A stretch of DNA of 64,000 nucleotides from Chloroflexota bacterium (lineage in GTDB: Bacteria > Chloroflexota > Anaerolineae > B4-G1 > SLSP01). The notes below the pieces were generated by a model. That model ran no database searches. It saw only the letters and a list, made by a program, of their open reading frames with translations, and was not told where the DNA came from. The position numbers and the translations under genes are program-made. The stretch is from contig JAKQHY010000035.1 of NCBI GenBank assembly GCA_029555965.1, positions 1 through 64,000 on the forward strand, read 5' to 3'. This document shows positions 33,147 through 64,000 of the stretch, piece after piece (within the stretch, counting starts at the first letter, position 1; every line of letters starts with the position of its first letter).

Positions 33147-33232
33147 AGATAACCTCCTGATCAAAGTAATAGGAATAGGGTAAAAACTTTCTCCAGTCAA
33201 CAACGATCATTGTACACCGGAGATTTAAACTG

Positions 33233-36200
33233 TCAACCGGCGGATTGCACAGAGTCTTTCTTATCGGTGCGATGACGACCATTTTTCTTGACAGACTCCA
33301 ACACAGAGGCTACATCCCGGAGTAACTGCTCCTGATCGTAGATGCCTTTTTGCAACAATGCCTCCACCCCCTGTTGCAACCGTTCCCGTTCTTCGCGCGT
33401 CAACTCTTTGGCGGTGACGACGATGACGGGAATACGCTGCGTGGTGCTGTTAGCCTTCAGGTTTTCCAGCACTGCAAAGCCATCCACATCGGGCATCATC
33501 AAATCCAGCACAATCAAGGCCGGCGGGTCGGCGTGAATCCGGGAGATGGCATCAGCGCCGCCGGCCGCCTCCCGCACCTGGTGGCCGGCATTGGTGAGAA
33601 TCCGATGTAAAAGTTTCCGATCATCCACATTGTCATCCGCCACCAAAATGTAACCCTCACCGATGGGTTGATCTAACCGTGTCAGCGCATCCAACAAGTC
33701 CTGTTCATTGATAGGTTTGATCAAGTAGTCGCTGGCTCCCATACTGAAGCCCTTCTCCACATCGTCGCTCTTGATCGAACAGACAATCACCGGAATTTCA
33801 CGGGTCTCCGGTTCAGATTGTAAGTCTCCGATAACCTCCCAACCATCCTTGCCCGGCATCAATACATCGAGGGTAATGGCGTAGGGCTTCAGGCGACGAG
33901 CCTCGGCCATCACACGTGCGCTGTCCGTCAGACCAAAGACGATATACCCCTGCTTTTCGAGATACCGGCGCAGAATGGTGATCACGGTTTCGTCGTCATC
34001 CACGGCCAGAATGATCCGCGAGGTCGGACTCTTGCCCCGCTTTTCTTCGATCTCCTCCGGCGCCACAGTTCTCGATTGCGGGCCGCCAATAGGCAAGGAG
34101 AAGAAAAAGGTTGACCCCTCCCCCACCTTACTATCCAGCCAGAGATCGCCGCCGTGGGCCTTGATAAACTCCAGGCTCAAGGGCATCCCAATGCCGGTGC
34201 CGCCATATTTCCGCGTTGAAGAGGAGTCCACCTGTTCAAAGCGCTCAAACACTGCGGCGAAACGGTGCTGGGGAATACCGATGCCGGTATCCTGAACGCT
34301 GACAATCACCTGGTAGTTGTCATAGGTAGCCGAAATCTTGATGTAGCCCTGCTCGGTAAACTTCGCTGCATTACTCATCAAGTTCGTGATGACCTGACGG
34401 ACGCGTCGGGTATCGGCTAAAACCGAGGGCAGCTCGGGCGGCACATCGGCCAACAATTCTACATTTTTGTCCTTCACCAACGCCTTCGATACCAACAGGA
34501 CACTCTTGATCAGTTCCTTGAGGTCCGTCGGTTCAAACGCGAACTCCATCTTGCCGGCCTCAATCTTAGAAATATCGAGGATGTCGTTGATCAAGTTTAA
34601 CAACTGCGTGCCGCTCTCAAAAATGGCGGTGAGGTCGGTCTTCTGCATATCGGTGAGGGGGCCATCAATTCCTTTGAGGATCACGCGCGAGAAACCAATA
34701 ATGGAGTTCAACGGGGTGCGCAATTCATGGGACATATTGGCCAGAAATTCACTCTTAAGACGATCCACTTCCTTGAGTTTTTCGGCTGTCCCCTGCGCAT
34801 CCTGATACAATCCGGCGGTCTCCAGGGCCACGCTGATGTTGATGCCAGCGGTCCTGATGGTCTCCCGCACCTTCTCATCTATCGGCGGTTGTCCTTCCTG
34901 CCGGCCCACCATCAAGACGCCAAAGACGGCCTCGCGCACCGCCAAACGCACCGCATACGCTTCGACCAGCGGCGACTTTAGCCCGGCCGTGAAACTGAGC
35001 ATCAGGCTGTCCTTGCGCCCGCGGAAGTCAATGTGTGCGGTCTCCCGACTATCCACCACCTCATAGACAGCGGGGAATTCATTCGGCACGAACGTGCCCG
35101 GTTCGCGGTCAGCATTAAGCAGTACCCCCTCGCCATCCAACACGCCCACCGGGCTGAGAAAGCGCCCATCCCACTGCCACATCAGCACCGGCATGTGCAG
35201 CCACGCCGCGATAACCTGACCGACATTGCGCATCAAAGAGACCGGCTCCAACTCGGTGCTCGCGGTCTGAAGGACCTGGTTGAGGAAGGCGCGCCGGTCG
35301 GCCTCTTCCTGCGTGTCGGCAATCAAGCTGATATTCTGCAACGCCACCGAAGTCTGCCGCGCCACGCTCTCGTAAAACCGCAGTTCAGCCGTGGAGAACT
35401 CGCGCGTCTTTATGCTGTGGATCAGGAGCAAGCCATACTGCACATCGCGCACGGCCAGTGGAAACACGGCCGTCGCCCGCAGCCGCAACCCACCGAAAAA
35501 GTTTCGCACGTACTCATCCACGATAGGTTCCTGCGTTACATCAGGCGTCACGAAACGCCCATCGTTATTCAACACATCCAAGAACAAGCGCAGCTCGGAC
35601 AATGGCAAAATCTGCACCGGTAGTTTGGGCTGTTCCCGGCTGCGGTTAACCACCAACCGCAGTTCGGTGGGATTACGGATGGGCATCAACAGGCCGGCGG
35701 AGATCCAATCCGGCTCTTCGCGCTGCGAAATCCCATCTACGGCTGCCTCTAACACATCCTCCACAGCGCTGGCATCCGTGATCTGTTGCGAAATCCGATA
35801 CAACATCCGGGTCTCCGCCAGGGAGCCTTGCGAACGTTCGTAGAGGTTCGCACTTTCAATAACGTTGGCTAACTGCGTCGCCATCAAATCCAAAGTGGAA
35901 ATTTCTTCCTGAGTGAAGGCAAACCGACGCTGACTCTGGAGACTCAACACGCCAATGGTCTGCCCGCGACTCACCAGCGGCAAGGCGATAGCAGACCGCG
36001 TCTCCGGCAGCAATGGGTTGGCGAAATACAAGGGGTCACGCGACACATCCAGAGCCACCCGGCGTTGGGCGCGCTCGGCGCACCAACCTTCCAGGGTCTC
36101 GCTGCTGACGCGCAACCGATGCCCCATTCGCAACAATTTGTCGCCAGCCTCGCCGCTCCCCGCCTCCAGCACGGCCCATACCCCATCGCTATCCAGCAAG

Positions 36201-39200
36201 TAGATAGCCACAAAGTACAAATCAAACCGATCCCGGAAGAAATTCACCGAATCCCGCAGCAACTGCTCACGATCTGAGAGCGCCGTGGTGACATTCGCCA
36301 GGTCTACAGCGGCGCTCAACTGTTCGGTTTGATTCACCGAGCGTTGCAGCAGTTCGAGGTTAGAAATCACCACCGCCGCTTGTACCAGGATACTGTTGTA
36401 AAGCCGGATATCCTGTTCGGTCGGTTCAAATTTTTCGGAAAACTCGAACTTAAAGAAACCGATCCGTTCGCCGCTGACGATGCCGCCGATCAAGAACTGG
36501 CCGACAACGACCGACAGGACCCCCTGTTGCAGGTAGGCAGCGCGCGCAGCTTCAGGCAGACGCTCGTCCGTCGTCACATCTGCCACAACATACACTTCAT
36601 CCCCCACCTGCTCCAAAATCGGCAATTCCGAGATGTGCATTCGCTCGCCGATCTCGGCAGGCCGCAACTTTGGATCATTGCTCCATGCTGTCACCGTCTC
36701 CACGCGATCATGCGTGGCGCCGGTCTCCGGGTCAGGCACAAAAAGCTGGATTTCGCCCCGCGCCGACTCCCCCAGGATCGTGTGCTCAATGATCGCGCGC
36801 AGCAACGTCTCATAGGAGGTAGCTTTACCCAGCGCGCTTGTTGCCTCATATAACCGCCGCGACTCGCCCGCGCTGTCCTGGGCCTGCCGCAGCAAGCTGG
36901 CGCGCTCCATCGCCGAAGCAACTTGTGCGGCGACTTGTTCCAGGATCGGCATCAGATCGGCGCGCGAGAATGCCTCACTGGTGCGGCTCGCCAGGTGCAA
37001 TGACCCCAACGCGCGATACCCCAGACGCAGCGGCATAATCACCAGCGAAGTCATCTCCAATCCCAACCAATCCGCATCCTCTGGGAATTGCTGCGCAGGG
37101 TGCAGATCGTTAACCACATACAGTTGATTTTTTTGGGCCACCCAACTGGCACCGCTAGTAGGCGGCAAGCGGCGATTCAGCCAGAGCGCCGCCCCCTGAG
37201 TTTCGGCGGCTTGCCCCACCCCCAACACTTGTGAGGCGCCATCCCGCATATCATAGCCCACCAACAACAACATATCCAAAGGGAACAAGGCGCTCAGGCG
37301 GATCACAAAATCATCCAGAGCAGCCACGAGGTTCTCGGTAGCATTGAGGAACGCCACGACCTCTTGCAAAAAGCGCACCTGTTGCTCTCGGCGTCGGGTT
37401 TCGCGTAGCGCGTTCTGCGATTGATCCAGCAATAAGCGGTTTTCCAGAGCCAGCGAAATCTGATCGCGCACGGCCTCCAACATAGCAATGTCGTCCTCAG
37501 AGAATTGGGCCGCGTCGCCTGGCTCCTCAAAACGGAGCGTCCCGACCAATTCACCCTTCAATTCCAACGGCGAAATCAGCGAAGCGCCATCCCCGCCTTC
37601 GGTTGGGACAACCGGCATTTCCGGGGTCCAAGTCTCCGGCAAAGGCGCCACCGTCTCCAAAGAGGAGATGGGCGTGACCTGCTCCAAGTCGTAGGAGTAT
37701 CCCAGGACCCCTTGCTGCACCACATACGTGTCCAACATCTCCACCGTATAACGGCTTTGAATCCGCTGCACTTCCTGATAACGCGCCTCGGATTCCGCAA
37801 TCAGCCGCGCATTGATGATGGCATTGGCTAACTGGTCAGCCATCGTCTGCAAGATCGTGATGTCAGACGGCGAATAAGCGGCCACTTCGACGGATTGAAT
37901 GGTCATCGCGCCGATAACCTCGCCCCGGCTCGCCAGCGGCAACGCCATCTCCGAGCGGGTATCAGGCAGGTGGGGGTTGTTGAAGCGCACCGCAGCCTGC
38001 CCCACATCCAGCCGGATGACCGCCTCGCCACTCGCCACGCATGTCCCGATCATGGACTTGCCGCCGACTTCGAGACGGTGGCCGGCCTGCAACATAATCT
38101 GGCCGGCTTCGCCAGTGCCGGCGCGCAACACCGCCCAGTGCTGGGAATCATCCAGCAAGAAAATACCGGCATAGTACAAATTGAACCGCTCCCGAATCAG
38201 TTCGACCGCCTGGAACAACAACTGATCCTGATCCACGATGGAGGAGGCCGCCCGCGAGACTTCGGCCGCCGTTTGCAATCGCTGCGCCCGCCGTTCATTC
38301 TGTTCGATCAAGTGGCGCGTGTACAGCGCGCCGCCCACCTGATCGACGACCGTGCGCACGATGACCTCCAGGAAACGCTCCGAGACACGCCGCACCGGAC
38401 GGCGACCCAACCAGGAGAGTAGCCCCAACAACCGGTTGGCCGCGTGGAGCGCCGCTGAAATCACACTGCGGTACCCGCGCTGTCCCATACTGGCGCGGAC
38501 ACTTTCGGGCACCTCAACGTCAGGAGCCGTGATATCATCATAAACGTAAATCTTTTGGGACTCTCCTGTGAACCACGCCAGTAGCTCATGATCGAAGTCC
38601 ATCCGCGAAAAACACTGATAGTTTCGCGCCGCCCCCTCCAGCTCGATCAGGTGCGCATCCATCATCAGGGGATTGCCATGCTCATCCCAATGCGTAAACA
38701 AGCGCACAGATACCGCATCCATTTCTAAAAATTCGGCCACATCCGCAACCGAGGACACCAAATCCTGGACAGATTGGGCTTGATTGACCCCACGACTCAC
38801 TTTATAGAGCGCCTGGGTCTCAGCCAGCGAGGCCTGAGCCTCATCAAAGACACGCGCATTCTGGATAGCGGTGGCAATCTGCCCGGCCATCGTTTGTAGC
38901 ACGGTAATGTCGGTGCGTGAAAAGGATCGCACCTTATCTGATTGGACGGTCATGGCGCCGATGATCTGACCACGCCCGATCAGGGGCAAGGCAATCTCGG
39001 CAGTAGAATCCGGCAACAAGGGGTTTACATAACGCACTGCGGCCTCAATGCGTTCCGGGATCTGTGGAACACCCAACGCCACACACTGCCCAATCATGGA
39101 ATTGCTGCCAATTTCGAAACCGTGTTGGTTCGCCAACATGATACGACCTGGCTCCCCGGTGCCGGCGCGCAGTCCCACCCAATGTCGCTCTTGATCGACC

Positions 39201-40357
39201 AGGAAAATACCGACGTAGTAGAGGTGAAATTTCTCCTTAATCAAATCCACCGCCATCGGCAGCAGTTCATCCAGTCCCAGGATCGAAGCGGCGGCTTCGG
39301 CGACGATAGCCGCTGCCTCCATCCGCTCCGCGCGGCGCTGCAACTCGTCAAAAATGCGGGTGTTGTAGACGACGATCGCGACCTGATTAGCCAGCGCGCT
39401 CAACAACTCCATGTCTTTCTGGGTGAAGTCGGCGCCCTTCAGCACATTCACGACCGTCACCACCCCCAGCACACTCTCCTGGTAACGCAGCGGCGCGATG
39501 ATACAGCCGCCAATATTTTGCGCCAGTCGGGCCTGGTACGTGGCCTCATCCTCTAGCGGCGACATCTCCCCCTGAAGGAGCAGCAACGGACGTTGCTCAC
39601 GCAGCGCCCAGCCTCGCGCGCCCTCCCACAATACCGCGAAAGACGGCCACGCTACTTCCGGCGCTTTGGGGCCATCCTGGAAATAGTGCGTGACTTGGCG
39701 CGCTTCCATGTCGAACAGGGCCACGCTCGCCCAGTCGGCCTGAAGCAGACTCACCGATTGCCTCACCACCATCTGCAACAAGCCCGGCAAATCGGCAAAG
39801 CCGCCCACCAGGCTGCTGAGTTGGTACAATGCTTCCGCCTCAGCCAATGCATCCTGAGTTTGGTGGAGCAGTTCTTCTCCCTGAGCTTCCGCGCGCCAGC
39901 GGTCGGTCACATCCAACATGATCCCCACCATGCCCACCACGTGACCCTCCAGGTCAGCGATGGTGGCTTTGTTAAACGTCACCCGGTGTTCAACGCCATC
40001 AGCGTAACGGACCGGCGCCTCATAGCGCTGGGTGCCGGGGTTGCGAATCAAATCCAGGTCGCGCGTGTGATAGGCCACCGCTACCTCCGGCGGGACCACC
40101 TGAGGGAAATCGTAGGCGGTATGGCCCACGATCTGCTCGCGGGGCAGTCCCAACACGAGATCGGCAAATGCCCGGTTGCAGCCCCGGTAGATGCCCGATG
40201 TATCCTTGTAAAAAACGGGGTTGGGAATGGCGTCCAACAGGGATTGCAAGAAATGGAAGCTAGCCAGACCGCTTTCCTGCCCCCACGCCACCAACATCTG
40301 CTGCAATCCGGACGCTTCCTCCGGCAGCAAGTCCCTACCTTTCGCTTTAGCGCACAT
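33233..40357 (-). CDS. Giant hybrid histidine kinase: PAS + ~10 GAF + HisKA/HATPase_c + two receiver domains; start placed at MCAKAKG
   Basis: 'FLANMSHELRTPLNSIIGFS' (His codon 34727-34729), 'DTGIGI', 'GGTGIGMPLSLEF', REC1 'AVDDDE..LDVLMPG..IKPI', REC2 'VADDN..LDLMMPD'; start overlaps upstream stop (ATGTGCGCTAA). Confidence 0.93.
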   Translation of the reverse strand: MCAKAKGRDLLPEEASGLQQMLVAWGQESGLASFHFLQSLLDAIPNPVFYKDTSGIYRGCNRAFADLVLGLPREQIVGHTAYDFPQVVPPEVAVAYHTRDLDLIRNPGTQRYEAPVRYADGVEHRVTFNKATIADLEGHVVGMVGIMLDVTDRWRAEAQGEELLHQTQDALAEAEALYQLSSLVGGFADLPGLLQMVVRQSVSLLQADWASVALFDMEARQVTHYFQDGPKAPEVAWPSFAVLWEGARGWALREQRPLLLLQGEMSPLEDEATYQARLAQNIGGCIIAPLRYQESVLGVVTVVNVLKGADFTQKDMELLSALANQVAIVVYNTRIFDELQRRAERMEAAAIVAEAAASILGLDELLPMAVDLIKEKFHLYYVGIFLVDQERHWVGLRAGTGEPGRIMLANQHGFEIGSNSMIGQCVALGVPQIPERIEAAVRYVNPLLPDSTAEIALPLIGRGQIIGAMTVQSDKVRSFSRTDITVLQTMAGQIATAIQNARVFDEAQASLAETQALYKVSRGVNQAQSVQDLVSSVADVAEFLEMDAVSVRLFTHWDEHGNPLMMDAHLIELEGAARNYQCFSRMDFDHELLAWFTGESQKIYVYDDITAPDVEVPESVRASMGQRGYRSVISAALHAANRLLGLLSWLGRRPVRRVSERFLEVIVRTVVDQVGGALYTRHLIEQNERRAQRLQTAAEVSRAASSIVDQDQLLFQAVELIRERFNLYYAGIFLLDDSQHWAVLRAGTGEAGQIMLQAGHRLEVGGKSMIGTCVASGEAVIRLDVGQAAVRFNNPHLPDTRSEMALPLASRGEVIGAMTIQSVEVAAYSPSDITILQTMADQLANAIINARLIAESEARYQEVQRIQSRYTVEMLDTYVVQQGVLGYSYDLEQVTPISSLETVAPLPETWTPEMPVVPTEGGDGASLISPLELKGELVGTLRFEEPGDAAQFSEDDIAMLEAVRDQISLALENRLLLDQSQNALRETRRREQQVRFLQEVVAFLNATENLVAALDDFVIRLSALFPLDMLLLVGYDMRDGASQVLGVGQAAETQGAALWLNRRLPPTSGASWVAQKNQLYVVNDLHPAQQFPEDADWLGLEMTSLVIMPLRLGYRALGSLHLASRTSEAFSRADLMPILEQVAAQVASAMERASLLRQAQDSAGESRRLYEATSALGKATSYETLLRAIIEHTILGESARGEIQLFVPDPETGATHDRVETVTAWSNDPKLRPAEIGERMHISELPILEQVGDEVYVVADVTTDERLPEAARAAYLQQGVLSVVVGQFLIGGIVSGERIGFFKFEFSEKFEPTEQDIRLYNSILVQAAVVISNLELLQRSVNQTEQLSAAVDLANVTTALSDREQLLRDSVNFFRDRFDLYFVAIYLLDSDGVWAVLEAGSGEAGDKLLRMGHRLRVSSETLEGWCAERAQRRVALDVSRDPLYFANPLLPETRSAIALPLVSRGQTIGVLSLQSQRRFAFTQEEISTLDLMATQLANVIESANLYERSQGSLAETRMLYRISQQITDASAVEDVLEAAVDGISQREEPDWISAGLLMPIRNPTELRLVVNRSREQPKLPVQILPLSELRLFLDVLNNDGRFVTPDVTQEPIVDEYVRNFFGGLRLRATAVFPLAVRDVQYGLLLIHSIKTREFSTAELRFYESVARQTSVALQNISLIADTQEEADRRAFLNQVLQTASTELEPVSLMRNVGQVIAAWLHMPVLMWQWDGRFLSPVGVLDGEGVLLNADREPGTFVPNEFPAVYEVVDSRETAHIDFRGRKDSLMLSFTAGLKSPLVEAYAVRLAVREAVFGVLMVGRQEGQPPIDEKVRETIRTAGINISVALETAGLYQDAQGTAEKLKEVDRLKSEFLANMSHELRTPLNSIIGFSRVILKGIDGPLTDMQKTDLTAIFESGTQLLNLINDILDISKIEAGKMEFAFEPTDLKELIKSVLLVSKALVKDKNVELLADVPPELPSVLADTRRVRQVITNLMSNAAKFTEQGYIKISATYDNYQVIVSVQDTGIGIPQHRFAAVFERFEQVDSSSTRKYGGTGIGMPLSLEFIKAHGGDLWLDSKVGEGSTFFFSLPIGGPQSRTVAPEEIEEKRGKSPTSRIILAVDDDETVITILRRYLEKQGYIVFGLTDSARVMAEARRLKPYAITLDVLMPGKDGWEVIGDLQSEPETREIPVIVCSIKSDDVEKGFSMGASDYLIKPINEQDLLDALTRLDQPIGEGYILVADDNVDDRKLLHRILTNAGHQVREAAGGADAISRIHADPPALIVLDLMMPDVDGFAVLENLKANSTTQRIPVIVVTAKELTREERERLQQGVEALLQKGIYDQEQLLRDVASVLESVKKNGRHRTDKKDSVQSAG

Positions 40358-43300
40358 CGCCACTGCCCTCCTCACCCGTCAGTTGCGGGGAGCGGAATTG
40401 TACTACATTGCGCGAAGTCCCCAAGGCGCGGCCCAGTTCGCGCAAACCGGTCTGGAGTACCCCCTGGACATCCGGTGCGCGTTGGATGCGCTCGGTAATT
40501 TCGCGGATCATTTGCTCGCGGCGGGCGCGCGCCTGGATGGCTTCGAGCTGGTTCAAGTTCTGCACCGCGATGGCGGCCTGACCGGCCAGGCTCGTCAAGC
40601 GCCGCATCTCTTCTTCGGGGAAAGTCGTCGTCTGTGGGTAGATGGCGTTAAGATAACCAACCCGTTGGCCGCCGGCGATCAGCGGCACAAAAATGGTGCT
40701 GGTTGCCCGGAAGCGATGGAGATAGAGGGCGCGCAAATTATTATCCAACCGCGGATCGTTTGCAATATCTTCGAAGAAAACCGGCGTGTAACCAAAAAAC
40801 TCATTGGCAGAGGGGAAGGCAGCCAACGGATAGCGATCGCTGACCGCATCCGCAGGCAACGAACTCCAGCGCGCCAACACGGAAATCCACTCAGGTTGTT
40901 CGTTATCAGTCCAAGGGCGGTCAAAGAAGTTCAGCGAGACGTTGTTGCTGCTTTGGCCCAAGAGCGTGTAACGGCGCAACACATCCAGGATGCCAATGTA
41001 CGAGTCGGCGGCGTTCAACTCGGCGCTGGCGCGATACAACGCCTCCTGCTCTGAAAGGGAGGTCTGTACCCGGTTGAACAGATTTTCTCGAACGAGGGTG
41101 TTGGAGAGGGCCGCCGCCGCCGTCTGCAACGCGCCAATCTCATCCGCTTGCAAAAGCCGCGCCTCACGCACGCCGACGAATGCCAGAAACCCCGGCGGGC
41201 GGTCTTCTACGACAATCGCCAGAGCCAGCAAGGATTGGCAGGCAAGCGGCGCCAACAGCTCGCGCGCCTCATCTGGCAATTCGTCTATCATCATCTGCAT
41301 AAACCCAGTTTCACGGAGACGCTGCGCCAGCGTGGGGAATTTGTTCATCGGCAAGCCCTGCAAGGTTCCACCGCGCAGAGCTTCCGGGAGGTCCGGCATT
41401 GTCCATTCCGCCACCAGCCGCCAGTAGGCGCCCACCGTGTCCCAATAGGCGCCGGTGGTATCCTCGAAACTCTCGGCATAGTAAGCGCGGTCCACTCCGG
41501 CGGCCTGGCCCAACAGTTCCAACACCCCCTCCAAGGCGCCTGTGCCATCCTGCGCCAGGGAGGCCACGGCCTGGGAAATGTTGGTCTGGTAACGCGCTTG
41601 CCGCTCCACCACTGAAAGCGCGGTCTGGGTGCGTCCGAATTGCAGCGCGTTCTGCAAGGCTGCCGCCGCCTGTGTCGCCAGGAACTCCAGCAGGTGCAGA
41701 TCATCTTCGTTGAATTGATCGACTGCGGCGCCGTGGACGAAAATAGCGCCCAAGACTTCCTCACCGATTTGTAAGGGCACGCCGATCTGCGAGAGCAATC
41801 CGGCCTCAACCAGGCGCGCATTGCCCTCAGTAGGGTACGTGCGGTTGTCGCGCACCAATACATGTTCACGGTTCTGGATGATGATTTCGGTCAGACCGTG
41901 GGCGCTGGGAGTCGTTACCTCGATATCCGGCAGCAGTTCAGCAGCATCGGCGCTCTGGCCTTTCATATACTCGCCGGTGACGCTATCGCGCAGGAATACC
42001 ACAGAAGACGGCGCGTGAAGTACCCGCCGCGACAGATCGGCGGCCCGCGTCAAAAGGGGTTTGACATCCAGAATTGCCAGCAGTTCAATGCCAGCCTCGT
42101 AAAGTTGGGCGAATTCCTCGGCCCGCCGCCGTGTTTCTTCCGAAAGGGTCAGGTTACTCATAATCACGCCAATCTGATTTGCCAGGTTCTGCGCCAGTTC
42201 GCGGGTATCCGGGTCCAGTGGCAGGTCGCCATGGCGCTGAATCATGGCAATGAACCCGGCCTGAGCGCCGCCGCTGGTGATAGGCACATACAGCACACGC
42301 TGGAAGTTATAAGCGTTGAGCAACGCCTCAACCGCATCAGACGTCGCAGCAGGCGGAGCGTCGCCGGACGCCTGGGCCAGGTACAGAAGCGGCGTCATCG
42401 GGCCTAATTCAGGATGGCTCAATCCACGGAAAAAGATATGATGCTCATCCGGCAAACTGAAGCTGTGGGTAAAAAAGGGCAGCGGCTGGCCGGCCATGTC
42501 CAACACGGCCTGCGGTTGCACAATCGGCGCGTCGGGAATGACGAAGGTGAAGATGCCTATTGCCATATCCAGACTGTGCGCCAACACTCGCGTGATATGT
42601 ACCAGCACTTGTTCTGGGGCGATGTCAGGATCGGCGGAAACCCGCAAGACGCTGCTGATCAAGACTTGTTGGCGCTCGTTGCGCTGCGCTTCTTCAAAGA
42701 GGCGGGCGTTGTCCAGGGCCAGGGCCACTTGTTCGGTCACGCTGGAAATCAGTTCCAGTTCTTCGTCGCTCCAACTATGTTGGGTATCAGAGAGACCCAG
42801 GTAGCCTACCACCCGGTCGCCGGCGCGCATCGCCTCCATCACCACCGGCACCCCCCCATCCCGGAACATTTTCCGCCCCACCTGGCCCTCCAACAAATCC
42901 GCCGGCACGGGCAAGGGCGGCACGGGGTTGGTATCTACGCGATCATATTCGTAGGCCAACGTGCGCGTCCGGCTCGTCATCCGCGCCCATTCCCGACGTT
43001 GGTAGTCAATTTGCACCTCGCGCAGTTCGGCAATGGCGCTCTCCATCACTTCCAAAGAGCGCGCGTTGCTCAGGGCAATCGCCAGTTGGTCGGCCATCAA
43101 TTGCAGGGTGCTGATGTCCTCATCGCTGAAAGCCTGCGGCTGCGAACTCTGCACATCCAAGACGCCGATCACTTCGTTGGCGCTCTTCAAGGGCAACGCC
43201 ATCTCTGAGCGAGTTTCCGGCAAGTCGGGGTTATTGAACCACACTGCGTCACCGCCGACGTCAAAGGCGATGCGTGGCTTGCCGGTGCCGGCGACGTAAC

Positions 43301-48556: not shown

Positions 48557-48558
48557 GG

Positions 48559-50229: not shown

Positions 50230-50231
50230 AG

Positions 50232-54866: not shown

Positions 54867-56616
54867 GGTCGCCATCCCCCGGCTCTAGCAGTGGCGCCGC
54901 GGACGGGGTCGGCTCGTCCGCAGACACAGGCGGTTCGGCAGGCGGCGCTTCGCCCAAATTCAGGCGGACGTAGGTATGTGAACCACGTAAACTGCGATTT
55001 AATTCTTCGGTAGCGATCCGCATTAACGCCTCCATACTCACCGCGCGCTGGAGCGCGTCGGTGATCTCGCGGGTCACTTGCTCGCGGGCCGCGCGGCGCT
55101 GGGTATCCTGATACAAGCGCGCACTTTCCAGCGCCAACGCCGACTGTTCAGCCAGAGTTTGCATCAGCGCGATCTCTTCCTGTGTCCATTGGCGGCCGCC
55201 AGACTTGTGCCCATCCATCACCCCAATGACGCGGCCCCGCACTTTGATCGGGATAGCGAGCGCCGTGTTTTCGACGTCGGTGGTCATTTGTCCCTGGGTC
55301 AACGCCGTCCGCATTTGCGGCGTCCAGGTATCTCCGACCGGCAAAATGGCCTGACGATCGCTGACAAACCCCAGATCGGTCTGCGCGTTGAGCAGGTTGG
55401 CCCACGCTTGCCCGGATACCCCGCCATAAGCACTGCGTTCGGCCTCGAAACTTTCTTCAATCTGCCGAAACAGGCGCGCGTTATTGATGGCGGTCGCAAT
55501 CTGATCGGCCAACATCTGCAACACGGCCACATCTTCCGGGGAAAACGCTTCCGATTCGGCGCTCTGCACATCCAGCACACCGATGACCTTCCCGCGCGCC
55601 CGCAAGGGCAGCGCCGCCTCCGACCGGGTCAGGGGCAAATCGGGATCATCGAAGGTGACGAAGTCCTGAGCTGTATCCAGCGCAATGCGCGCTTTGCCAC
55701 TCTGCGAGACTTCCCCGACGACCTCGTTCCCCCCCACACGCAGACGATAACCGCGCGCCAACAGCTTTTGCCCGCCCTCGCCGGAGGCAGCCACTAACTC
55801 GAGCCACTCGCCTGTGCCGTCTACCAAAAACAGGCCCGTATAATAGAAGCTAAATTTGCGGCTGATCGAATCAACCACACTGTCCATCAAGGGACTCAAC
55901 GCCAGTTCAGAGGTGGCCTCATGGGCAATGACGGCGGTCGCTTCCAGGTAGCGCGTTCGGCGGGTCAGCTCTACGGTGCGTTCCTGCACGGTCTCTGCCA
56001 ACCTGGCGCGCTGTTCTTCCAGTTCTGCCGCATAACGGCGGGCGCGCCGCAGCGCCTCTCCCCAACTGTTCGAGGTCAGATTGATCAAGCCAGCCGTTGC
56101 CATCAAAAACAGGCTCAACGGCCACCATTGCTCCATAGGGGATCTGACGCCAAGTCTACCGGGCAGGAGATTGGCAGTTTGGGCTAGAGCGATCCCCAGA
56201 GTGGCCGCAACGCTCAGTCCGGCAAAGGCGATGGCCCCCCGGCCACCAAGCAGAAGACCGGCCGCGACCACAATCACGACAAAGCTCCAATAAGTTGCGG
56301 ATTGCGTGCCACCCAAAAAGAAGCTCACGGCCAGCATCAAGAACCAAAAAACAACCAGAAACATCATGCTGGCGCTAGACACCTGACCGCGCCGCATCAG
56401 CCACAGCAAGGCCCCATTGCTCAAAAGGAATCCCCCAACAAGCGGCAAGGATAGCTCTGGATTGGGCAAGAAGACAAAGAAGAAGCCCGCAGCGATGCAA
56501 ACAGCAATAAAAATCCATAAGATGGTATTGAGCAAAGCCGCTACATGCGTCTTCTGTTCATCCCCTGCGAAGACAGGGGGCGTAAGCAAGCGCTTGATGG
56601 TATTCCCCATGATCAC
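54859..56616 (-). CDS. Multi-TM + GAF + short GAF + tail sensor protein
   Basis: ~6 TM; 'FSFYYTGLFLVDGTGEWLELVAASGEGGQKLLARGYRLRVGGNEVVGEV'; 'AAREQVTREITDALQRAVSMEALMRIATEELNRSL'. Confidence 0.86.
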   Translation of the reverse strand: MIMGNTIKRLLTPPVFAGDEQKTHVAALLNTILWIFIAVCIAAGFFFVFLPNPELSLPLVGGFLLSNGALLWLMRRGQVSSASMMFLVVFWFLMLAVSFFLGGTQSATYWSFVVIVVAAGLLLGGRGAIAFAGLSVAATLGIALAQTANLLPGRLGVRSPMEQWWPLSLFLMATAGLINLTSNSWGEALRRARRYAAELEEQRARLAETVQERTVELTRRTRYLEATAVIAHEATSELALSPLMDSVVDSISRKFSFYYTGLFLVDGTGEWLELVAASGEGGQKLLARGYRLRVGGNEVVGEVSQSGKARIALDTAQDFVTFDDPDLPLTRSEAALPLRARGKVIGVLDVQSAESEAFSPEDVAVLQMLADQIATAINNARLFRQIEESFEAERSAYGGVSGQAWANLLNAQTDLGFVSDRQAILPVGDTWTPQMRTALTQGQMTTDVENTALAIPIKVRGRVIGVMDGHKSGGRQWTQEEIALMQTLAEQSALALESARLYQDTQRRAAREQVTREITDALQRAVSMEALMRIATEELNRSLRGSHTYVRLNLGEAPPAEPPVSADEPTPSAAPLLEPGDGDHE

Positions 56617-56623
56617 ATCCTTT

Positions 56624-58330
56624 CTATCCCGATCCTGCTGCGTCGTCCGTCTCTGACATCGCCAGGCGAATGGTCAACATGTCCAAATCGAGCGCCTGAC
56701 GGATCTCGCTCGCTGTCGTTTTGAGCACGGTTTCAATGTTAAGGGATTCACGAATGTGCGACGTCACTTCACCGACCAACCGTTCCTGCGCGGCGCGCCG
56801 CTGAGTATCCTGATAGAGGCGCGCACTCTCCAAAGCCACGCCAAGTTGCTCGGTCAGCGTCTCCAAAAGTTCATGCTGATCGGCTGACAGGGGTTGCGCC
56901 TCGGACACATACGCCGTAAGTTCTCCGATCACTTGCCCCCGCGTTTTGAGCGGCACGGCCAACACATTTGAGGGCGTCGCGGGTTCCGGCGTAGGCCGCG
57001 CCGTGGGCGACCGCAGGTCAGTGACCTCAAGGGGCGCATCACCTAAAAGCAGGCCATGGGGATCATAGCGCGCCGCCAGACGCCCGCTGTTACGGAGGAT
57101 TTCTTGCCAGGCAAGGCGGCTTACCTCACCATAGGCGCGCTGCGCCGCATCCAAAGTAGCCTGAGATTCTGCGATGAGGCGGGCATTCTCAATCGCGACG
57201 GCCAACTGGTCTGCCAACGTCTGCAAGACATGCAAATCTTCCTGGGTGAAGGCCTCGGGTTCGACGCTCTGCACGTCCAACGCGCCAATCACCTTCCCCC
57301 GCACTTGCAAGGGCAGCGCCATTTGAGAACGGGTTGCCGGCATCTCCGGGTGTTCCTCCCCCATAGCCGCAGCCCCCCCCTGGGCAATGCGCGATTCTCC
57401 CGTTTGGGTCACATAACCGACCAGGCCCACCTCCCCCACGCTCAAGCGATGTCCACGCGCCAACAAACGCTGGCCCTCCTCAGACGATGCCGCCCGCAAC
57501 ACGGCATATTTACCCACCTCATCAATCAAAAAGATGCCGGCGTGGTAGAAGCCAAAATAATCCGAGATCAGTTGCGCGGCGCGCTGCAACAACATCCCCA
57601 CATCCTGGATGGTGGTCGCTTCGCGCGCGACTGCGGTGGCTGCCTCCAATTGCCTGGAGCGTTTTTCGAGATCGGCGGTGCGCCGCACCACCTGAGCTTC
57701 CAAATCGGCTTGATTGGCCTCCAAAGCGTGGGACAGTTCACGGCTCCGGGTCACATAGGTATTAAAGCGGGACGTGTAAGAGGACACCAGTAGCATAATA
57801 AAGACGCCCATACTCACCAACTCGACAGAAAGGGGTATCCAGGCCCCCACATCCGTCGAAACGACCTCGACGGCGATGAGACGACCACTGATGAACACCC
57901 AACTCATCCCCACCATCGTGGCGATAACCAGCCCTATCGTCAGAATAGCGGCCCGCTGCCCCAAGAAGAGCGCCGAGAGAAAGATCATGGTCAGTAGATA
58001 AACGCGGCTGCTGTCGCCAAGCCCGCGTGTGACAAAGACAATGACCGATATGGTATAGAGGATTAACTGAATCCCCCCGACCTGGAGCGTATACGGGGCT
58101 TGCCGCCACAACGTCAGAAGCACCAGGATACCATAGACGCCAATGTAGGCTTCCATAGCCCAAAAGAGGCCGCGCGAGTAGGTCGTATAGGCGCCAACGG
58201 CGGTCATTAAACCACCAAAGAAAAGCATGACCCGCAATACCCGCCGAATTAGTTCCTGACGCCAGGTGAGGATATCCGCCACCAGGGGAACGTGTTGCTG
58301 GTCAACCAAGCTTATGTTATCCTTGTCCAT
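56624..58330 (-). CDS. Multi-TM + GAF + short GAF + tail sensor protein; start placed at MDKDNIS
   Basis: ~6 TM; 'FGFYHAGIFLIDEVGKYAVLRAASSEEGQRLLARGHRLSVGEVGLVGYV'; 'AAQERLVGEVTSHIRESLNIETVLKTTASEIRQAL'. Confidence 0.86.
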   Translation of the reverse strand: MDKDNISLVDQQHVPLVADILTWRQELIRRVLRVMLFFGGLMTAVGAYTTYSRGLFWAMEAYIGVYGILVLLTLWRQAPYTLQVGGIQLILYTISVIVFVTRGLGDSSRVYLLTMIFLSALFLGQRAAILTIGLVIATMVGMSWVFISGRLIAVEVVSTDVGAWIPLSVELVSMGVFIMLLVSSYTSRFNTYVTRSRELSHALEANQADLEAQVVRRTADLEKRSRQLEAATAVAREATTIQDVGMLLQRAAQLISDYFGFYHAGIFLIDEVGKYAVLRAASSEEGQRLLARGHRLSVGEVGLVGYVTQTGESRIAQGGAAAMGEEHPEMPATRSQMALPLQVRGKVIGALDVQSVEPEAFTQEDLHVLQTLADQLAVAIENARLIAESQATLDAAQRAYGEVSRLAWQEILRNSGRLAARYDPHGLLLGDAPLEVTDLRSPTARPTPEPATPSNVLAVPLKTRGQVIGELTAYVSEAQPLSADQHELLETLTEQLGVALESARLYQDTQRRAAQERLVGEVTSHIRESLNIETVLKTTASEIRQALDLDMLTIRLAMSETDDAAGSG

Positions 58331-58350
58331 ACCGCTACCTTCCACGCCTC

Positions 58351-61116
58351 TTAGGGTTGGTCTTCCGTGCCCAGATGCACATCAAGCGCGAGGAATCCCA
58401 GCTTTCCCCCGATCTCGCGCGCCGCAGTCTGTAAGACGGTCTCCACATCCAACGTCTCGCGCATCCGGCTGGTGATCTCAGAGATCAAACGTTCGCGGGC
58501 AGCGCGACGCTGGGTCTCATCTAGCAATCGCAGACTCTCCGCAGCCAATCCCACTCGTTCAGCGATAGCCTGCACCAGGGCGATCTCATCTTCCGTCAGT
58601 TCCCGCTGCCCATCCTCCCAGTGAACGCCCAATGCGCCAATTGGCACCCCGCGCTGCATAATGGGGGCCACCAACGCCAGGTTGTCGTCCGACCTACGCA
58701 ATACGGATGGCTCGGATTGGCGTAAGGCTTGTTGGATTTCGGACGCCACACTTTCGCCAAGCAATTCCTGACCGGGCCGCTGTGTCTCATACGCCGTCGC
58801 CGCAGCCATCTGGAGATACTCATTCCATGCCCGCTCTTGATAGCGACGCTGTGTTGCCTCCATCTCCCGCAGTGTCTCCTGAGAACGGTTGAACAGGCGC
58901 GCATTCTCAATAGCATTGGCGACCTGATCGGCCATTGTCTGCAAAACGGCAATATCCTCCTCGCTAAAGGCCGCTTCCAGCGAGCTTTGGATCGTCAATG
59001 CGCCGATCGCCACCCCTCGGCTGACCAGCGGCAGCGCCAGTTCCGAGTGGGTATCCGGCAAATAGGGGTTCTCGAAACGCACTGCCTCGACCCCCACATC
59101 CAGCGCAATACGCGCCTGCCGGTCAGTGATACATTGCCCAATCATCGAGCTACCGCCGATTTCCAACTTATGCCCGCGCGCCAACATCTGGCGGCCCGCC
59201 TCGCCCGTTCCCATGTGGAGTTCGGCCCACTTGCCATCCTCACTCACCAGGAACAGGCCCGCGTAATACAACGCGAACCGTTCCCGCACCAGTTCCACCA
59301 CACGCTGTATCAAAACATCTGGGTCAAGTTCACTGCTGGCGACGCGCCCGACCTCAGCGGCAGTCTGAAGCTGAAGGGCGCGCCGGGACACTTGACCGGA
59401 GAGCAACACACTGTGCAGGGAACTGTCAATCTGACCGCGCAGAGAATCATAGATGGCGCCATCCCCGCCCCTGGCGTCAAATAAAATAAAACCCAATTGC
59501 CGCTCCCGGAAGTATAAGGAGTGTACGACCATCTCGTAACGGCGATCTCGCGGCCACACCCCATCGGGGAGCAAGCGTTGCGCCGCGAAACGCCGGCCCC
59601 AGACTTTCGGAGCTATCGCGCCGTCCTCATCATACGCCGCCAACAATCTAACCCAACCGGTTGGAGAATCGGGGTTTTCGTAGAGCGCCAGGTAGAAGCC
59701 GGGAATGCCCAGACCGGGCAATTGGGTGGATAGGACATCTACGACTTCAGAAGTCTCTTGTATGGCCGCCAACGACTGACTGATCGCGCGCAAAACGCCG
59801 GTCTGCCGCGTAGCCTCGAATGCGCGATAGGCCTCAACGCGCTGCGCCCGCTCGGCGATTAACACACGCGCCTGCCCCCACAGGGCCTCAGCCTTGTGCA
59901 AAGTCGCGGGCGCCAGGGCCGGCAACATCTGATGCCGCAGGCCAGAAATAACCGTCTGCCATATCAAAAGATTGTCTTGCACCTCGGCGGCGCGCCGCAG
60001 CAAGCCGGACAGCACCGCAAGAAAACGGGGCGACGGAGCCTCTTCCAGATCCGCGATACAGCTCTCCACCAGGAGCGCTGCCCAGCCCTCCTCCTGCCCA
60101 CCCACCGGCGTTTGCGCCAACAATGCCGCAGTCGCGGCGCGCCATTCCGTCGTGAAGTGCCCCACGCCCGCCGACGGCTCGATAAGCAGCGCCGCCTGGT
60201 CAACAGCGGCCGTGGTAACGTCCGAGGAAACACAACCACAGGATTCCCGCACGGTCAAAGAGCCGGTCACACTGTGCTCCTCAGAGACTTTTTTACCTTT
60301 CATCAATGCGAGCAACATCTCAACAGCCTGATACGCCATTGCATAAAAGGGCAAGTGAAGGGTCGTCAGGGAGGGCGTCACCACGGCCGATTCAGCCAGA
60401 TCATCGAAACCGACCACCGCCAAATCGTCAGGAACGCGCACGCCCCGCGCCTGGAATTCACGCAGCGCGGTGAGCGCGCCCCGGTCATTCCAACTTACCA
60501 CCGCTTCCAGATCAATGCCAGGGCGCAGTCCCTGCTCGTCCAACAGCCAGCGCGCGATGCCGTGGCCCATTTCGGGGACTAACAACCGCGGCTCGAAAGG
60601 CAAGCCATACTCGGCCAGGGTTGCGACATACCCGCGATAACGCTCCTGGGCGCCCACATGTCCCGGCGGTCCTTGCAGGAAGGCAATCTTCCGATAGCCA
60701 TGCGTCTCGATGAGATGCACCAGCGCCTGACGTATCGAACCACAATCATCCATCAATACACTGGGGAATCCTTCGATCTTATGCTCGCCGCACACGATGG
60801 GCAACGGGCGCTCCCCGATCTGGTAATGCCGGCAGAAATCGCGAAACTCCTGAGGGCTGACGACATTGTCCACTCCGCCGGCCCACACAACCAAGCCCGC
60901 CACGTTATCCGGGCCGGCCAATTCGTAAAGCACGTTGGCCTGACTCCCGAAGTTCGCCTCGGCCCGTAAGGTCCCCCCCAAAAAGCACAGTAAATTGACG
61001 TTATGCTTCTGGGCCGCAGCGACAGCCCCACGCCAGGGTAAGTACCCCCAACTGGAGATAATGTCAGAGATGAGTAGCCCGATGGTGGGACGTGTTTTCG
61101 CGCGTCTAGTGGGCAT
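58351..61116 (-). CDS. HTH-less LacI/PBP1-fold + GAF soluble sensor
   Basis: 'RPTIGLLISDIISSWGYLPWRGAVAAAQKHNVNLLCFLGG...LAVVGFDDLAESAVVTPSLTTLHLPFYAMAYQAVEML...LTVRESCGC'; GAF and tail; 11-bp overlap with upstream gene. Confidence 0.88.
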   Translation of the reverse strand: MPTRRAKTRPTIGLLISDIISSWGYLPWRGAVAAAQKHNVNLLCFLGGTLRAEANFGSQANVLYELAGPDNVAGLVVWAGGVDNVVSPQEFRDFCRHYQIGERPLPIVCGEHKIEGFPSVLMDDCGSIRQALVHLIETHGYRKIAFLQGPPGHVGAQERYRGYVATLAEYGLPFEPRLLVPEMGHGIARWLLDEQGLRPGIDLEAVVSWNDRGALTALREFQARGVRVPDDLAVVGFDDLAESAVVTPSLTTLHLPFYAMAYQAVEMLLALMKGKKVSEEHSVTGSLTVRESCGCVSSDVTTAAVDQAALLIEPSAGVGHFTTEWRAATAALLAQTPVGGQEEGWAALLVESCIADLEEAPSPRFLAVLSGLLRRAAEVQDNLLIWQTVISGLRHQMLPALAPATLHKAEALWGQARVLIAERAQRVEAYRAFEATRQTGVLRAISQSLAAIQETSEVVDVLSTQLPGLGIPGFYLALYENPDSPTGWVRLLAAYDEDGAIAPKVWGRRFAAQRLLPDGVWPRDRRYEMVVHSLYFRERQLGFILFDARGGDGAIYDSLRGQIDSSLHSVLLSGQVSRRALQLQTAAEVGRVASSELDPDVLIQRVVELVRERFALYYAGLFLVSEDGKWAELHMGTGEAGRQMLARGHKLEIGGSSMIGQCITDRQARIALDVGVEAVRFENPYLPDTHSELALPLVSRGVAIGALTIQSSLEAAFSEEDIAVLQTMADQVANAIENARLFNRSQETLREMEATQRRYQERAWNEYLQMAAATAYETQRPGQELLGESVASEIQQALRQSEPSVLRRSDDNLALVAPIMQRGVPIGALGVHWEDGQRELTEDEIALVQAIAERVGLAAESLRLLDETQRRAARERLISEITSRMRETLDVETVLQTAAREIGGKLGFLALDVHLGTEDQP

Positions 61117-63301
61117 TTGTTTCTCCTTCTGTTTCTGGTTGGGTCTCCACTCCCAACCGCACGTAAACTCGGGAAGAACCCAACACTTTGTTCAATTCCT
61201 CGGCGGCAATCCGCATCAGCGCATCCATGCCCGTCGCCCGTTGCAGAACATCGGAAATTTCACGGGTGGCTTGCTCACGGGCCGCGCGGCGCTGTGTTTC
61301 CCGATAGAGCCGCGCACCCTCCAGGGCCACGTTCAATTGATCGGTCATAGCGGTCAGCAAGTCAATCTCCTCCTGAGTCCAGTGAGCGCCATCGGCCTTG
61401 CGACCATCAATCACGCCCACGACCTGATTGCGCACCTTGATGGGGACCGCCATCGTCGGCGACTCGCCCTGCCCCGGCTCGATCTGGCCGGAAACTAACG
61501 CAGCTTCCATTTCCGCACGCCAGACATCAACAGCCGGCAACGTAGCGTGATAAGTACTCAGGAATCCCAGGTCGGACTGCGCTTCGAGCAGACTTTGCCA
61601 CGCGGCATGGCTTGACTCACCGTAGGCGCGCCGTTCGGCCTCCAGACTCTCTTGAAGTCGCTGGAACAAACCGGCGTTGCGCACAGCATTGGCGACCTGG
61701 TCAGCCACGGTTTGCAGCACGGTGATGTCTTCTTGAGAGAAGAAAGCCTCTTGATCGCTTTGCGCCGTCATCGCGCCCAGAATCTGCCCGCCGGCGCGCA
61801 GCGGCAGCGCCAACTCGGAGCGCGTGGCGGGTAAAAAGGGATTGCTGAAGCGTACGGGCGCCTCGCCGACATCCAACTGAATGTCAGCCTGCCCGCTGGA
61901 TACACAACGGCCAATCATCGAATTGCCCCCCACCGGCAACTGCCAGCCCTGCGCCATCATTTTTTGTCCAGCCTCGCCAGAACCGGCGCGCAAAACGGCA
62001 TATTCACCGGTCTCATCCACCAGGAACAGTCCCACATAATACAGATTAAACCGGTCCCGCATCAACGCCACCACCTGCGGCAGCAGTTCGTCGAGGTCTA
62101 GCACGGCCGTCGTGGTTTTGGACACCTCAGCCGCTGTGAGCAGCCCTCGCGTGCGTTCGACGACGCGCTGCTCCAGGCTGGTCAGGGTCTCCCGCAACTG
62201 CGCGGTCATACTATTAAAGGCCTCGGCCAGATTGATCACTTCGGCAGGACCTTGCAGCACGGCTTGCAAATGCGTCTCCCCCTCGGCGATCCGGCTGGCG
62301 GTAGTGGTCAGGTTAAGCAGCGGCACAGACAGGCGCCGGGCGAGGTAGACCGTCACGCGACTGGCGGCCGCCCCCACGACCACCACCATGACGAGCGATA
62401 TCAGGATGCTGCCGACGAGGGCCATCGAACCTTCCTGTAGCGGCAGTTCGATGACGACGGCCCAGTCAGGCGTCCCCAAAGGGACATAAGTTCCGACGAC
62501 CCAGTTGCCATTGATCCCCCGAAACCACTTCGTCAATCCCTCATCGTCAGGCGCCGTGCTCTGAATGAAATGGGCCACCAGCGCCAACTGACTGACATTC
62601 TCACCGCGCAGAACGCGCGAGAGGTCGCCGAAAGCAATCAGATTGCCCGGCCGGTCTACCACGTAGGACAGACCGGTCTCGCCAACCTCCAGTTGGGCGA
62701 CCAGATCCCACATAAATTTGAGATTCACCTCGGCCAGCAGCACTCCCTGAAAATCGCCAAATACATCCAAAGCCGGGGCCGCCATAATCACCCGTGGCTC
62801 GCTGGTCGCCTCGTCCACGTAAATCGGGCTGACATATCTATTCCCCTGCCTGACCAGATCGAACCAACCGCTTTCGAGCCATTGGGTAAGCTGTCCCGAC
62901 CGTATCCGCGACAGGAGAGAGACCAGGCTCTGCTCCTGTCCTTGGGCATCCAGAAAAGCCAACTGTTGGAAGGCGAGTTGCTGCCCCATCACGCTCGCCA
63001 GAATTCTTTCCTGATCTTGCGAAGAGGTCGTCGCAGGATTGCCGAGTCGGGCCGCCGTCTCCAATACGTCAAATCGGACCTGGAAAAAGTTGGCAACCTC
63101 CGTGGCCGCTTCTTTTGCAATCAGGTGCTGTTCGCTCTCCAGCGCCCGATTCCCTGTCTGGAAGAAAAGGAGCAGTTGCGGGAGGTAGGCAATGAACAAC
63201 GCGCCCAAGAGCAACACCAGGAAAGCGCGGACCAGGGTCGCTGCCAAAGTGCGCGTGGTTGCGGGGGTCTGTCCGGTGGGCTTTTCTTTTTGCATAGACA
63301 T
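61106..63301 (-). CDS. dCache-like / HAMP / GAF + short GAF + tail membrane sensor
   Basis: TM-Cache-TM ('YVSPIYVDEATSEPRVIMAAPALDVFGDFQGVLLAEVNL'), HAMP, 'FNLYYVGLFLVDETGEYAVLRAGSGEAGQKMM'. Confidence 0.88.
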   Translation of the reverse strand: MSMQKEKPTGQTPATTRTLAATLVRAFLVLLLGALFIAYLPQLLLFFQTGNRALESEQHLIAKEAATEVANFFQVRFDVLETAARLGNPATTSSQDQERILASVMGQQLAFQQLAFLDAQGQEQSLVSLLSRIRSGQLTQWLESGWFDLVRQGNRYVSPIYVDEATSEPRVIMAAPALDVFGDFQGVLLAEVNLKFMWDLVAQLEVGETGLSYVVDRPGNLIAFGDLSRVLRGENVSQLALVAHFIQSTAPDDEGLTKWFRGINGNWVVGTYVPLGTPDWAVVIELPLQEGSMALVGSILISLVMVVVVGAAASRVTVYLARRLSVPLLNLTTTASRIAEGETHLQAVLQGPAEVINLAEAFNSMTAQLRETLTSLEQRVVERTRGLLTAAEVSKTTTAVLDLDELLPQVVALMRDRFNLYYVGLFLVDETGEYAVLRAGSGEAGQKMMAQGWQLPVGGNSMIGRCVSSGQADIQLDVGEAPVRFSNPFLPATRSELALPLRAGGQILGAMTAQSDQEAFFSQEDITVLQTVADQVANAVRNAGLFQRLQESLEAERRAYGESSHAAWQSLLEAQSDLGFLSTYHATLPAVDVWRAEMEAALVSGQIEPGQGESPTMAVPIKVRNQVVGVIDGRKADGAHWTQEEIDLLTAMTDQLNVALEGARLYRETQRRAAREQATREISDVLQRATGMDALMRIAAEELNKVLGSSRVYVRLGVETQPETEGETNAH

Positions 63302-63328
63302 CGTTTCACCTCTCGGCGACGCGCGCGC

Positions 63329-64000
63329 TTAACGAATAATCTCGTCCGCCTGCGCCAAAATACTTTCGGGTACGGCCAATCCCATGGCCAGCGCCGCTTT
63401 ATAGTTGATCTGCACGAAAAGGTCCGCCGAGACGACCGGAATGGTGCCGGCTGGCGTTCCCTTAAAAATCTTGTCAGCCAGGGGAGCGGCCTGCTTACCC
63501 GCGTCATACGATTTGACGTTCACCCCAAAAATGGATTCATAACCTTCCACAGACATAAAAGCGCCGCCGATGGGCACCCCCTGTTCATGGGCGAATCTGC
63601 CGATCACGACAAAATTTTCCGGCGTCACAGTGAGCGGTTCCACGAGAAAAAAGATCGCGTCCATCCCCACGTCATCCTGCTGCGCGCGCGATTGCAATTC
63701 CGCCTCAAGTTCTGCCGCATTCGCGGCAGGGAACTCGATCAAAGTCACCCCGGCAGCCGCTGCCACCGGGTATAGGACATCGAGTTGTGGTTGCACAATG
63801 GGATAATCCCGCTGATAGGGAACCCATAGGCGTTTGGCCTCGGGGAGGATCTCTTGCAGAATCTCAAACCGCTTGACCGCGATGTCCGGGCCGGGATAAC
63901 GCACACCGGTGACGTTGCCGCCGGGTTCACGCACACTGTCAACCAGGCCCATGCCCTCGATCAGGGCAAAGCTAAACACTACCGGGATGTCGGTCCCCTG
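63329..64000 (-). CDS. ABC_sub_bind-family substrate-binding protein, C-terminal part (truncated by window edge)
   Basis: Frame open to 64000 ('QGTDIPVVFSFALIEGMGLVDSVREPGGNVTGVRYPGPDIAVKRFEILQEILPEAKRL...'). Confidence 0.85.
   Translation of the reverse strand, partial: QGTDIPVVFSFALIEGMGLVDSVREPGGNVTGVRYPGPDIAVKRFEILQEILPEAKRLWVPYQRDYPIVQPQLDVLYPVAAAAGVTLIEFPAANAAELEAELQSRAQQDDVGMDAIFFLVEPLTVTPENFVVIGRFAHEQGVPIGGAFMSVEGYESIFGVNVKSYDAGKQAAPLADKIFKGTPAGTIPVVSADLFVQINYKAALAMGLAVPESILAQADEIIR

Follow-up and report, generated by a model that had tools for sequence, protein, structure and literature searches.

An array of GAF sensors without kinase domains encoded together with histidine kinases in Anaerolineae

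Twelve sensory genes on one strand of the window

The window analyzed here comprises the first 64,000 nucleotides of contig C162 from an Anaerolineae genome (G000). From position 33233 to its end, it contains the twelve consecutive minus-strand open reading frames of the original prediction, all of which were recovered, with junctions between -29 and +27 nt. Gene calls are longest-ORF calls, and the features are as follows.

33233..40357, minus strand: g01, giant soluble hybrid histidine kinase, the last gene of the array (Pfam)
40347..44318, minus strand: g02, TM-HAMP-multiGAF sensor with the shared tail (Pfam, tail search)
44311..45441, minus strand: g03, SBP2, ABC_sub_bind-type lipoprotein-like binding protein (Pfam)
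45441..47192, minus strand: g04, multi-TM GAF sensor with tail (Pfam, TM prediction, tail search)
47189..48556, minus strand: g05, six-TM sensor with one reduced GAF and tail (Pfam, TM prediction, tail search)
48559..50229, minus strand: g06, six-TM GAF sensor with tail (Pfam, TM prediction, tail search)
50232..54875, minus strand: g07, HTH-less LacI-type (Peripla_BP_3)-PAS-GAF sensor with tail, without TM segments (Pfam, TM prediction, tail search)
54859..56616, minus strand: g08, multi-TM GAF sensor with tail (Pfam, TM prediction, tail search)
56624..58345, minus strand: g09, MASE11-type TM GAF sensor with tail (Pfam MASE11; AlphaFold2 of GAF-GAF'-tail)
56690..56884, minus strand: shared C-terminal tail on g09, a long signalling helix and a short helix, model residues 257-321 (alignment A1, own-genome search, joined array, model)
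58351..61116, minus strand: g10, HTH-less LacI-type GAF sensor with tail (Pfam, tail search)
61106..63301, minus strand: g11, dCache-HAMP-GAF sensor with tail (Pfam, tail search)
63329..64000 in the window (full gene 63329-64348), minus strand: g12, SBP1, ABC_sub_bind lipoprotein-like binding protein, truncated by the window edge and complete on the contig

The giant kinase consists of a PAS domain, at least six GAF domains, HisKA, HATPase_c and two REC domains, in this order (Pfam). Its H box is intact (FLANMSHELRTPLNSIIGFSR) and the receiver aspartates are present, as read directly from the sequence. With the ATG start chosen here (33233-40357), the first junction is the ATGTGCGCTAA overlap quoted previously; a GTG at 40375 is an alternative start. 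Pfam annotation agrees with the predicted domain order in all but one respect: the protein at 47189-48556, described before as TM-HAMP-GAF, gave no HAMP match and features only six predicted TM segments and a GAF. Within the window, HisKA, HATPase_c and two Response_reg domains are found in the last gene only, and the LacI-type proteins yield no HTH match in Pfam, both as proposed. An Rfam search of the window returned no match. Elsewhere in the window, positions 11783-17404 encode a probable surface protein of 1873 aa, in which seven DUF11 repeats and a PKD domain were recognized.

The array probably continues on a second contig, with a kinase at each end

The initial estimate of at least 30.8 kb proved far too low. 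Beyond SBP1, a 200-nt gap is followed by six more sensory genes up to the end of contig C162 (75,270 bases), and searching with a profile built from the C-terminal region that the sensors have in common (A1) located a second sensor run on contig C33. C162 ends with the same 141 bases, without mismatch and on the same strand, with which C33 starts, and a gene split between the two contigs continues in frame; from this overlap, we infer that the two contigs adjoin. Thus joined, the array would run from 33233 to about 128586 (~95.4 kb), with 34 further genes upstream of g12 (on C162 to 75270, then on C33 to position 53457), all genes on the minus strand (46/46) and no internal gap exceeding 200 nt.

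The joined array comprises 35 sensors with the shared tail (hereafter tail sensors), four substrate-binding proteins (two ABC_sub_bind, one PBP_like_2, and one NMT1), a trio of slr1659, slr1658, and SpoIIE genes, two receivers, and two histidine kinases. Sensor input domains include Cache, multi-TM/MASE11, HTH-less LacI, and PAS. The two receivers and a HAMP-GAF-HisKA-HATPase kinase form the head of the array, and the giant hybrid kinase forms its tail, so that the notion of a single kinase holds only inside the window. The hallmarks of two-component systems, HisKA and HATPase_c together with receivers, are present both in the terminal kinase and in the head kinase and receivers.

The gaps and overlaps are compatible with a single operon, and the genes may be read as one transcript. 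The 200-nt gap (contig 64349-64548; L007 4350-4549) is the largest in the array and contains short repeated stretches (atagtcg). A search for minus-strand promoters and terminators in this gap gave no match; it may split transcription after SBP1, possibly with a second transcription start there. Promoter and terminator scans inside the window gave counts at chance level, and promoter-like matches within the run therefore neither prove nor exclude internal promoters. One such match (11/12) lies on the minus strand at window positions 33209-33236, at the 3' end of the kinase gene, and is followed by a 105-aa ORF of unassigned nature (32886-33203). On C33, a promoter-like site (10/12; G000:C33:53625-53654, L061 13625-13654) lies ahead of the array's first receiver gene, and a terminator-like hairpin separates the two.

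Several smaller operons could also produce this arrangement if neighboring sensors served different kinases and the run were a tolerated cluster with internal promoters. Such a division would fit the 200-nt gap that follows SBP1, the placement of the two kinases at either end of the array, and the SpoIIE trio in between. We nevertheless consider it unlikely, given that the head and tail kinases bracket the same set on single contigs of three other genomes (G020:C8 79998-142444, G021:C172 27946-77098, and G023:C222 8507-57969) and that the gaps are mostly overlaps. Moreover, the head kinase is absent from most other families, and the sensors there still run directly into one hybrid kinase.

The sensors share a GAF-GAF'-helix end and lack output domains

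All sensors of the array (35/35) have a common back end, composed of a conserved GAF domain, a long helix, a reduced GAF domain (GAF'), and a terminal helix tail with the pattern ..ARLYxxTQRRAARExxxxEITxxxRxxLDxExxLxTAxxExxxALxxxxxxRL. In each of them, the tail stops where the next (third) GAF would begin. The AlphaFold2 model of the g09 module, computed as one chain from 77 aligned modules (mean pLDDT 84), predicts two GAF-type domains, GAF and GAF', followed by helices of 53 and 47 residues, respectively; a short helix and a disordered stretch complete the chain. Foldseek matched this model to single GAFs and to signalling proteins with tandem GAFs, among them PDE2A, PDE5, and phytochromes. 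Alignment of the tail profile to the full GAF profile covers only the helix start and gives no significant match; the view that the tail represents the beginning of a GAF is therefore based on the sequence pattern together with the model. Two related ideas were discarded. The tail and the kinase N-terminus are not two halves of a split GAF, as the kinases begin with PAS or GAF' and not with the missing half; programmed frameshifting into the remaining GAF half was ruled out because the next gene begins immediately with a different domain.

In the window genome, the 35 strongest matches of a genome-wide tail search (same-protein repeats aside) all fall within the array, and the best match outside it scores 67 bits. 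Similarly, each of five closed or near-closed genomes, including that of Longilinea arvoryzae KOME-1, has its strong tail matches at one place.

The Pfam scan covered 33 of the 35 sensors, one of them as a fragment on the window's contig, and left out C33:18132-20432 and C33:39066-40295. It found GAF, PAS, HAMP, Cache, MASE11, and LacI-type domains only. None of these 33 proteins contains a catalytic, DNA-binding, or GGDEF/EAL output, which upholds the predicted lack of outputs against the very HMM search named as able to overturn it. A kinase domain is likewise absent from the 33 polypeptides, i.e., sensor and kinase do not reside in one protein. No sensor has an NCBIfam equivalog match above cut-off.

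A tail that ends where a further GAF would start is also what truncated kinases would leave behind, and the sensors might thus be remnants of multi-GAF kinases stripped of their catalytic ends. The end point is the same in all members, however, the long open frames retain conserved residues, and the sensors persist class-wide. Such decay, already disfavored, can be given hardly any credence.

For 27 of the 35 sensors of the window array, the best match lies in another genome and not in an array mate, indicating that sensor diversity has been maintained and does not stem from fresh duplication; recent tandem duplication was accordingly rejected for most members. Array members are only about 25-50% identical to each other over most of their length. 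Judged by their sequences, these sensors are old and distinct.

The array layout is conserved across Anaerolineae

Anaerolineae are filamentous bacteria that abound in sediments, digesters, and hot springs. With a cut-off of E <= 1e-25, the tail is present in 142 of 396 genomes of the class, representing 82 of 222 genera. In a phylum sample of 400 genomes, 32 were tail-positive, 31 of them in Anaerolineae; the sole exception (G411) shows 8% contamination. In a separate scan of 84,980 species genomes, the records returned are all titled Chloroflexota, mostly Anaerolineae. The genomes compared are mostly MAGs, and domain labels in them derive from searches with the window array's own domains, with a Pfam check on key genes.

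Across all loci examined, neighboring sensor pairs always share a strand (372/372), with a median gap of 2 nt and 48% overlapping or abutting; these counts are slightly redundant because some loci overlap. In other families, the canonical locus reads REC, REC, sensors (3 to 14), ParA-type ATPase, hybrid kinase, PALP-REC (a threonine-synthase-like enzyme that ends in a receiver domain), and EamA transporter; encoded on the opposite strand are an OmpR-type regulator, a REC-kinase, and a GAF-GAF-kinase. A kinase is the last gene in every array whose 3' end is present, and the window's family has a head kinase in addition. Sensor numbers range from 3-4 to 35 per array; the cultured species Longilinea arvoryzae KOME-1 has a small array of four. 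Individual window genes keep their places as well: the orthologue of g02 sits before the hybrid kinase in G020, G021, G023, and G018, and SBP2 has homologues in 19 of 40 relatives, occupying the equivalent position in four arrays.

The layout is found again in further genera and families, with 372/372 neighboring sensor pairs on one strand, and hence does not reflect chance. The original prediction had named, as the third finding that would speak against it, an absence of the gene set from related genomes; the neighborhood comparison found the set conserved. As a conserved system, the locus is about as certain as synteny allows, and the window region is best explained as the downstream third of a multi-receptor two-component system widespread in Anaerolineae.

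The locus could instead be a sensor nursery, which generates modules by duplication and recombination and supplies them to kinases encoded at other places; its sensors would then have little joint function, each maybe acting as a homodimer on targets of its own. A single back end in all members, the wide range in copy number, and the resemblance of many kinase-borne GAFs to sensor GAFs are in line with this scenario. On the other hand, the low mutual identity of the G000 members, which are usually closer to another genome, argues that their lineages have been kept apart; the tail hardly occurs outside the array, and the kinase, the receivers, and often ParA remain attached across families. We therefore regard a nursery as improbable.

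ParA-type ATPases, a receiver-fused enzyme, and a partner-switch trio accompany the sensors

ParA-like matches adjoin a tail sensor in 29 of 32 cases. In a phylogenetic tree, the array ParAs separate from chromosomal ParAs with 100/97 support. In the window's family, the only array-type ParA is a single copy on C9. This nearest array-ParA homologue in the window genome (G000:C9:358-7217, L209) is 45% identical and has a CheW gene and two MCP genes as neighbors; its long branch makes its placement in the tree uncertain.

In most lineages, PALP-REC is encoded beside the kinase, and full-length matches exist in nearly all of 40 relatives searched. Array-borne copies retain both the PLP-lysine motif SFKDR and the receiver aspartate motif LDLMMP. 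In the window's family, PALP-REC lies on a separate contig (C134), accompanied by the same REC-kinase, GAF-GAF-kinase, and OmpR-type regulator. The second receiver of the window kinase is 42-48% identical to the receiver of PALP-REC. Threonine-synthase-like enzymes fused to one or two C-terminal receivers are encoded in G000 at C134:26141-27895 (L179), C119:3536-5647, and C123:18154-20283. The open-access literature yielded no description of threonine synthase-receiver fusions.

The trio of slr1659-superfamily, slr1658-family, and SpoIIE phosphatase genes lies within the array at G000:C33:15329-18135 (L059). The slr1658 and slr1659 family genes score above NCBI cut-offs, the slr1658-family gene has a SiaB-kinase match below cut-off only, and the SpoIIE gene carries a TM-GAF front of its own. 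The trio was found in no other array examined, and open-access publications on slr1658/slr1659 describe no such array system. A phosphorylation-independent output, with the sensors acting mainly on this trio, or on ParA in other lineages, and the kinases merely co-located, would make sense of a SpoIIE gene with a TM-GAF front beside slr1658/slr1659 family genes, and of ParA genes next to tail sensors. It is nonetheless very unlikely, as among the arrays examined the trio was seen in this one only, while the terminal kinase is general.

A model for receptors sharing a kinase

We consider it probable that homotypic GAF'/helix contacts link these kinase-less receptors to hybrid kinases that they share. 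In each member, the common back end is combined with an individual module for ligand detection (Cache, multi-TM, cytosolic LacI-type, PAS, or a partner substrate-binding lipoprotein), and sensors and kinases would associate via their homologous GAF'/helix segments into heterodimers or larger clusters. In this way, 4 to 35 receptors could set the activity of one or two shared kinases, with the binding proteins presenting ligands to the sensors. Phosphate would be transferred to receivers of three kinds: those within the kinase, the stand-alone ones encoded at the array head, and, in most lineages, the one fused to the threonine-synthase-like enzyme next to the kinase, which would make PALP-REC an output. 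Where a ParA-type ATPase is encoded, as in many arrays, its probable role is to position or distribute the cluster. A positioned sensor cluster is plausible because ATPases of this type are responsible for the placement of chemoreceptor arrays in other bacteria (PMC3964821, PMC5706961, PMC10241942).

Several features favor homotypic GAF'/helix association and ligand presentation by binding proteins. In the kinases, GAF'/helix segments homologous to those of the sensors precede HisKA-HATPase. The tail profile matches the window kinase with 64 and 61 bits, the G275 kinase with 89.5 bits (5-145 of 156 positions), and the N-terminus of the G363 kinase with 50.6 bits, and the soluble kinases of other families open with GAF'. 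In relatives, an SBP2-type domain is fused to tail sensors (754-832 aa), linking the free binding proteins to the sensors; ABC_sub_bind-type domains are fused directly to tail sensors at G020:C8:111790-114054 and G021:C172:50827-55551. Other observations count against the model. Ordinary multi-GAF kinases frequently contain tail-like helices and GAF' segments, so that the shared tail may reflect ancestry only, the 200-nt gap may divide the transcript, and the window's family is without the array-type ParA and has PALP-REC on another contig. On balance, it is somewhat more probable than not that sensor and kinase proteins form one physical complex.

The overall interpretation of the original prediction stands in part, in that many sensors and shared kinases are encoded in one gene array, with two kinases in place of one. 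The shared tail, the ParA ATPase, and the PALP-REC fusion were missing from it because comparison was needed to see them. No described system of this composition was found in the open-access literature, including that on GAF arrays of Chloroflexi/Anaerolineae.

The class-wide layout of sensors with histidine kinases suggests an undescribed way of wiring many sensors into few switches. If the model is correct, Anaerolineae integrate very many signals via a dedicated receptor array devoid of chemotaxis or stressosome proteins, and the design of many receptors with a shared kinase arose again, from two-component parts. It would also give a reason for the huge GAF content of Anaerolineae genomes, and the PALP-REC fusion would offer a testable link from sensing to amino-acid metabolism.

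Comparison with known systems

The array is best read as following chemoreceptor-array logic, built from two-component parts. As in MCP-CheW-CheA arrays, receptors of different inputs with a common signalling end would feed few kinases, stand-alone receivers are present, and many gene sets encode a ParA-type ATPase. ParA-positioned cytoplasmic chemoreceptor arrays include those with PpfA, and ParC/ParP act in Vibrio (eLife 2014 e02151, eLife 2017 e31058). Unlike chemoreceptors, the array sensors end in GAF-GAF'-helix, and the array kinases, judged here from the genes, are of HisKA type. MCPsignal (PF00015) is absent from all array sensors scanned with Pfam, and no MCPsignal, CheW, or CheA domain occurs in the array proteins scanned. 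In the window genome, CheW matches map to contigs C9, C40, and C226 and all fall outside the array, and this genome has ordinary CheW/MCP genes elsewhere.

The stressosome, built from RsbR paralogues, RsbS, and RsbT (mBio 2022 e02001-22), similarly combines paralogous sensors of variable fronts and one back end that control a switch kinase, and the array contains a STAS-like slr1659 gene and a SpoIIE phosphatase. In contrast to the C-terminal STAS domain of RsbR, the common end in the array is GAF-based (GAF-GAF'-helix), and most array sensors are membrane proteins. No clear RsbT-like gene was found in the array; the slr1658-family gene has a SiaB-kinase match, though only below cut-off.

In RetS/LadS-GacS, LuxP-LuxQ, and TorT-TorS, the activity of a hybrid kinase is adjusted either by a binding protein or by a heterodimerizing second sensor. 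The array differs from them in that up to 35 separate kinase-less sensors and four binding proteins share a gene array with the kinases. The multi-GAF hybrid kinases of Chloroflexota use the same GAF, PAS, and HAMP blocks, and the terminal array kinase is one of them. The array sensors, unlike these kinases, are separate proteins that end before any catalytic domain, with about 25-30 GAF-bearing proteins at one locus. Tentatively, and with somewhat less confidence than in the model itself, the locus may represent a third type of receptor array in bacteria, with no relation to chemoreceptors or stressosomes, in which dozens of kinase-less receptors join a soluble hybrid kinase via the GAF'-helix tail, are positioned by ParA in many lineages, and signal partly by phosphorylating a threonine-synthase-like enzyme via its fused receiver.
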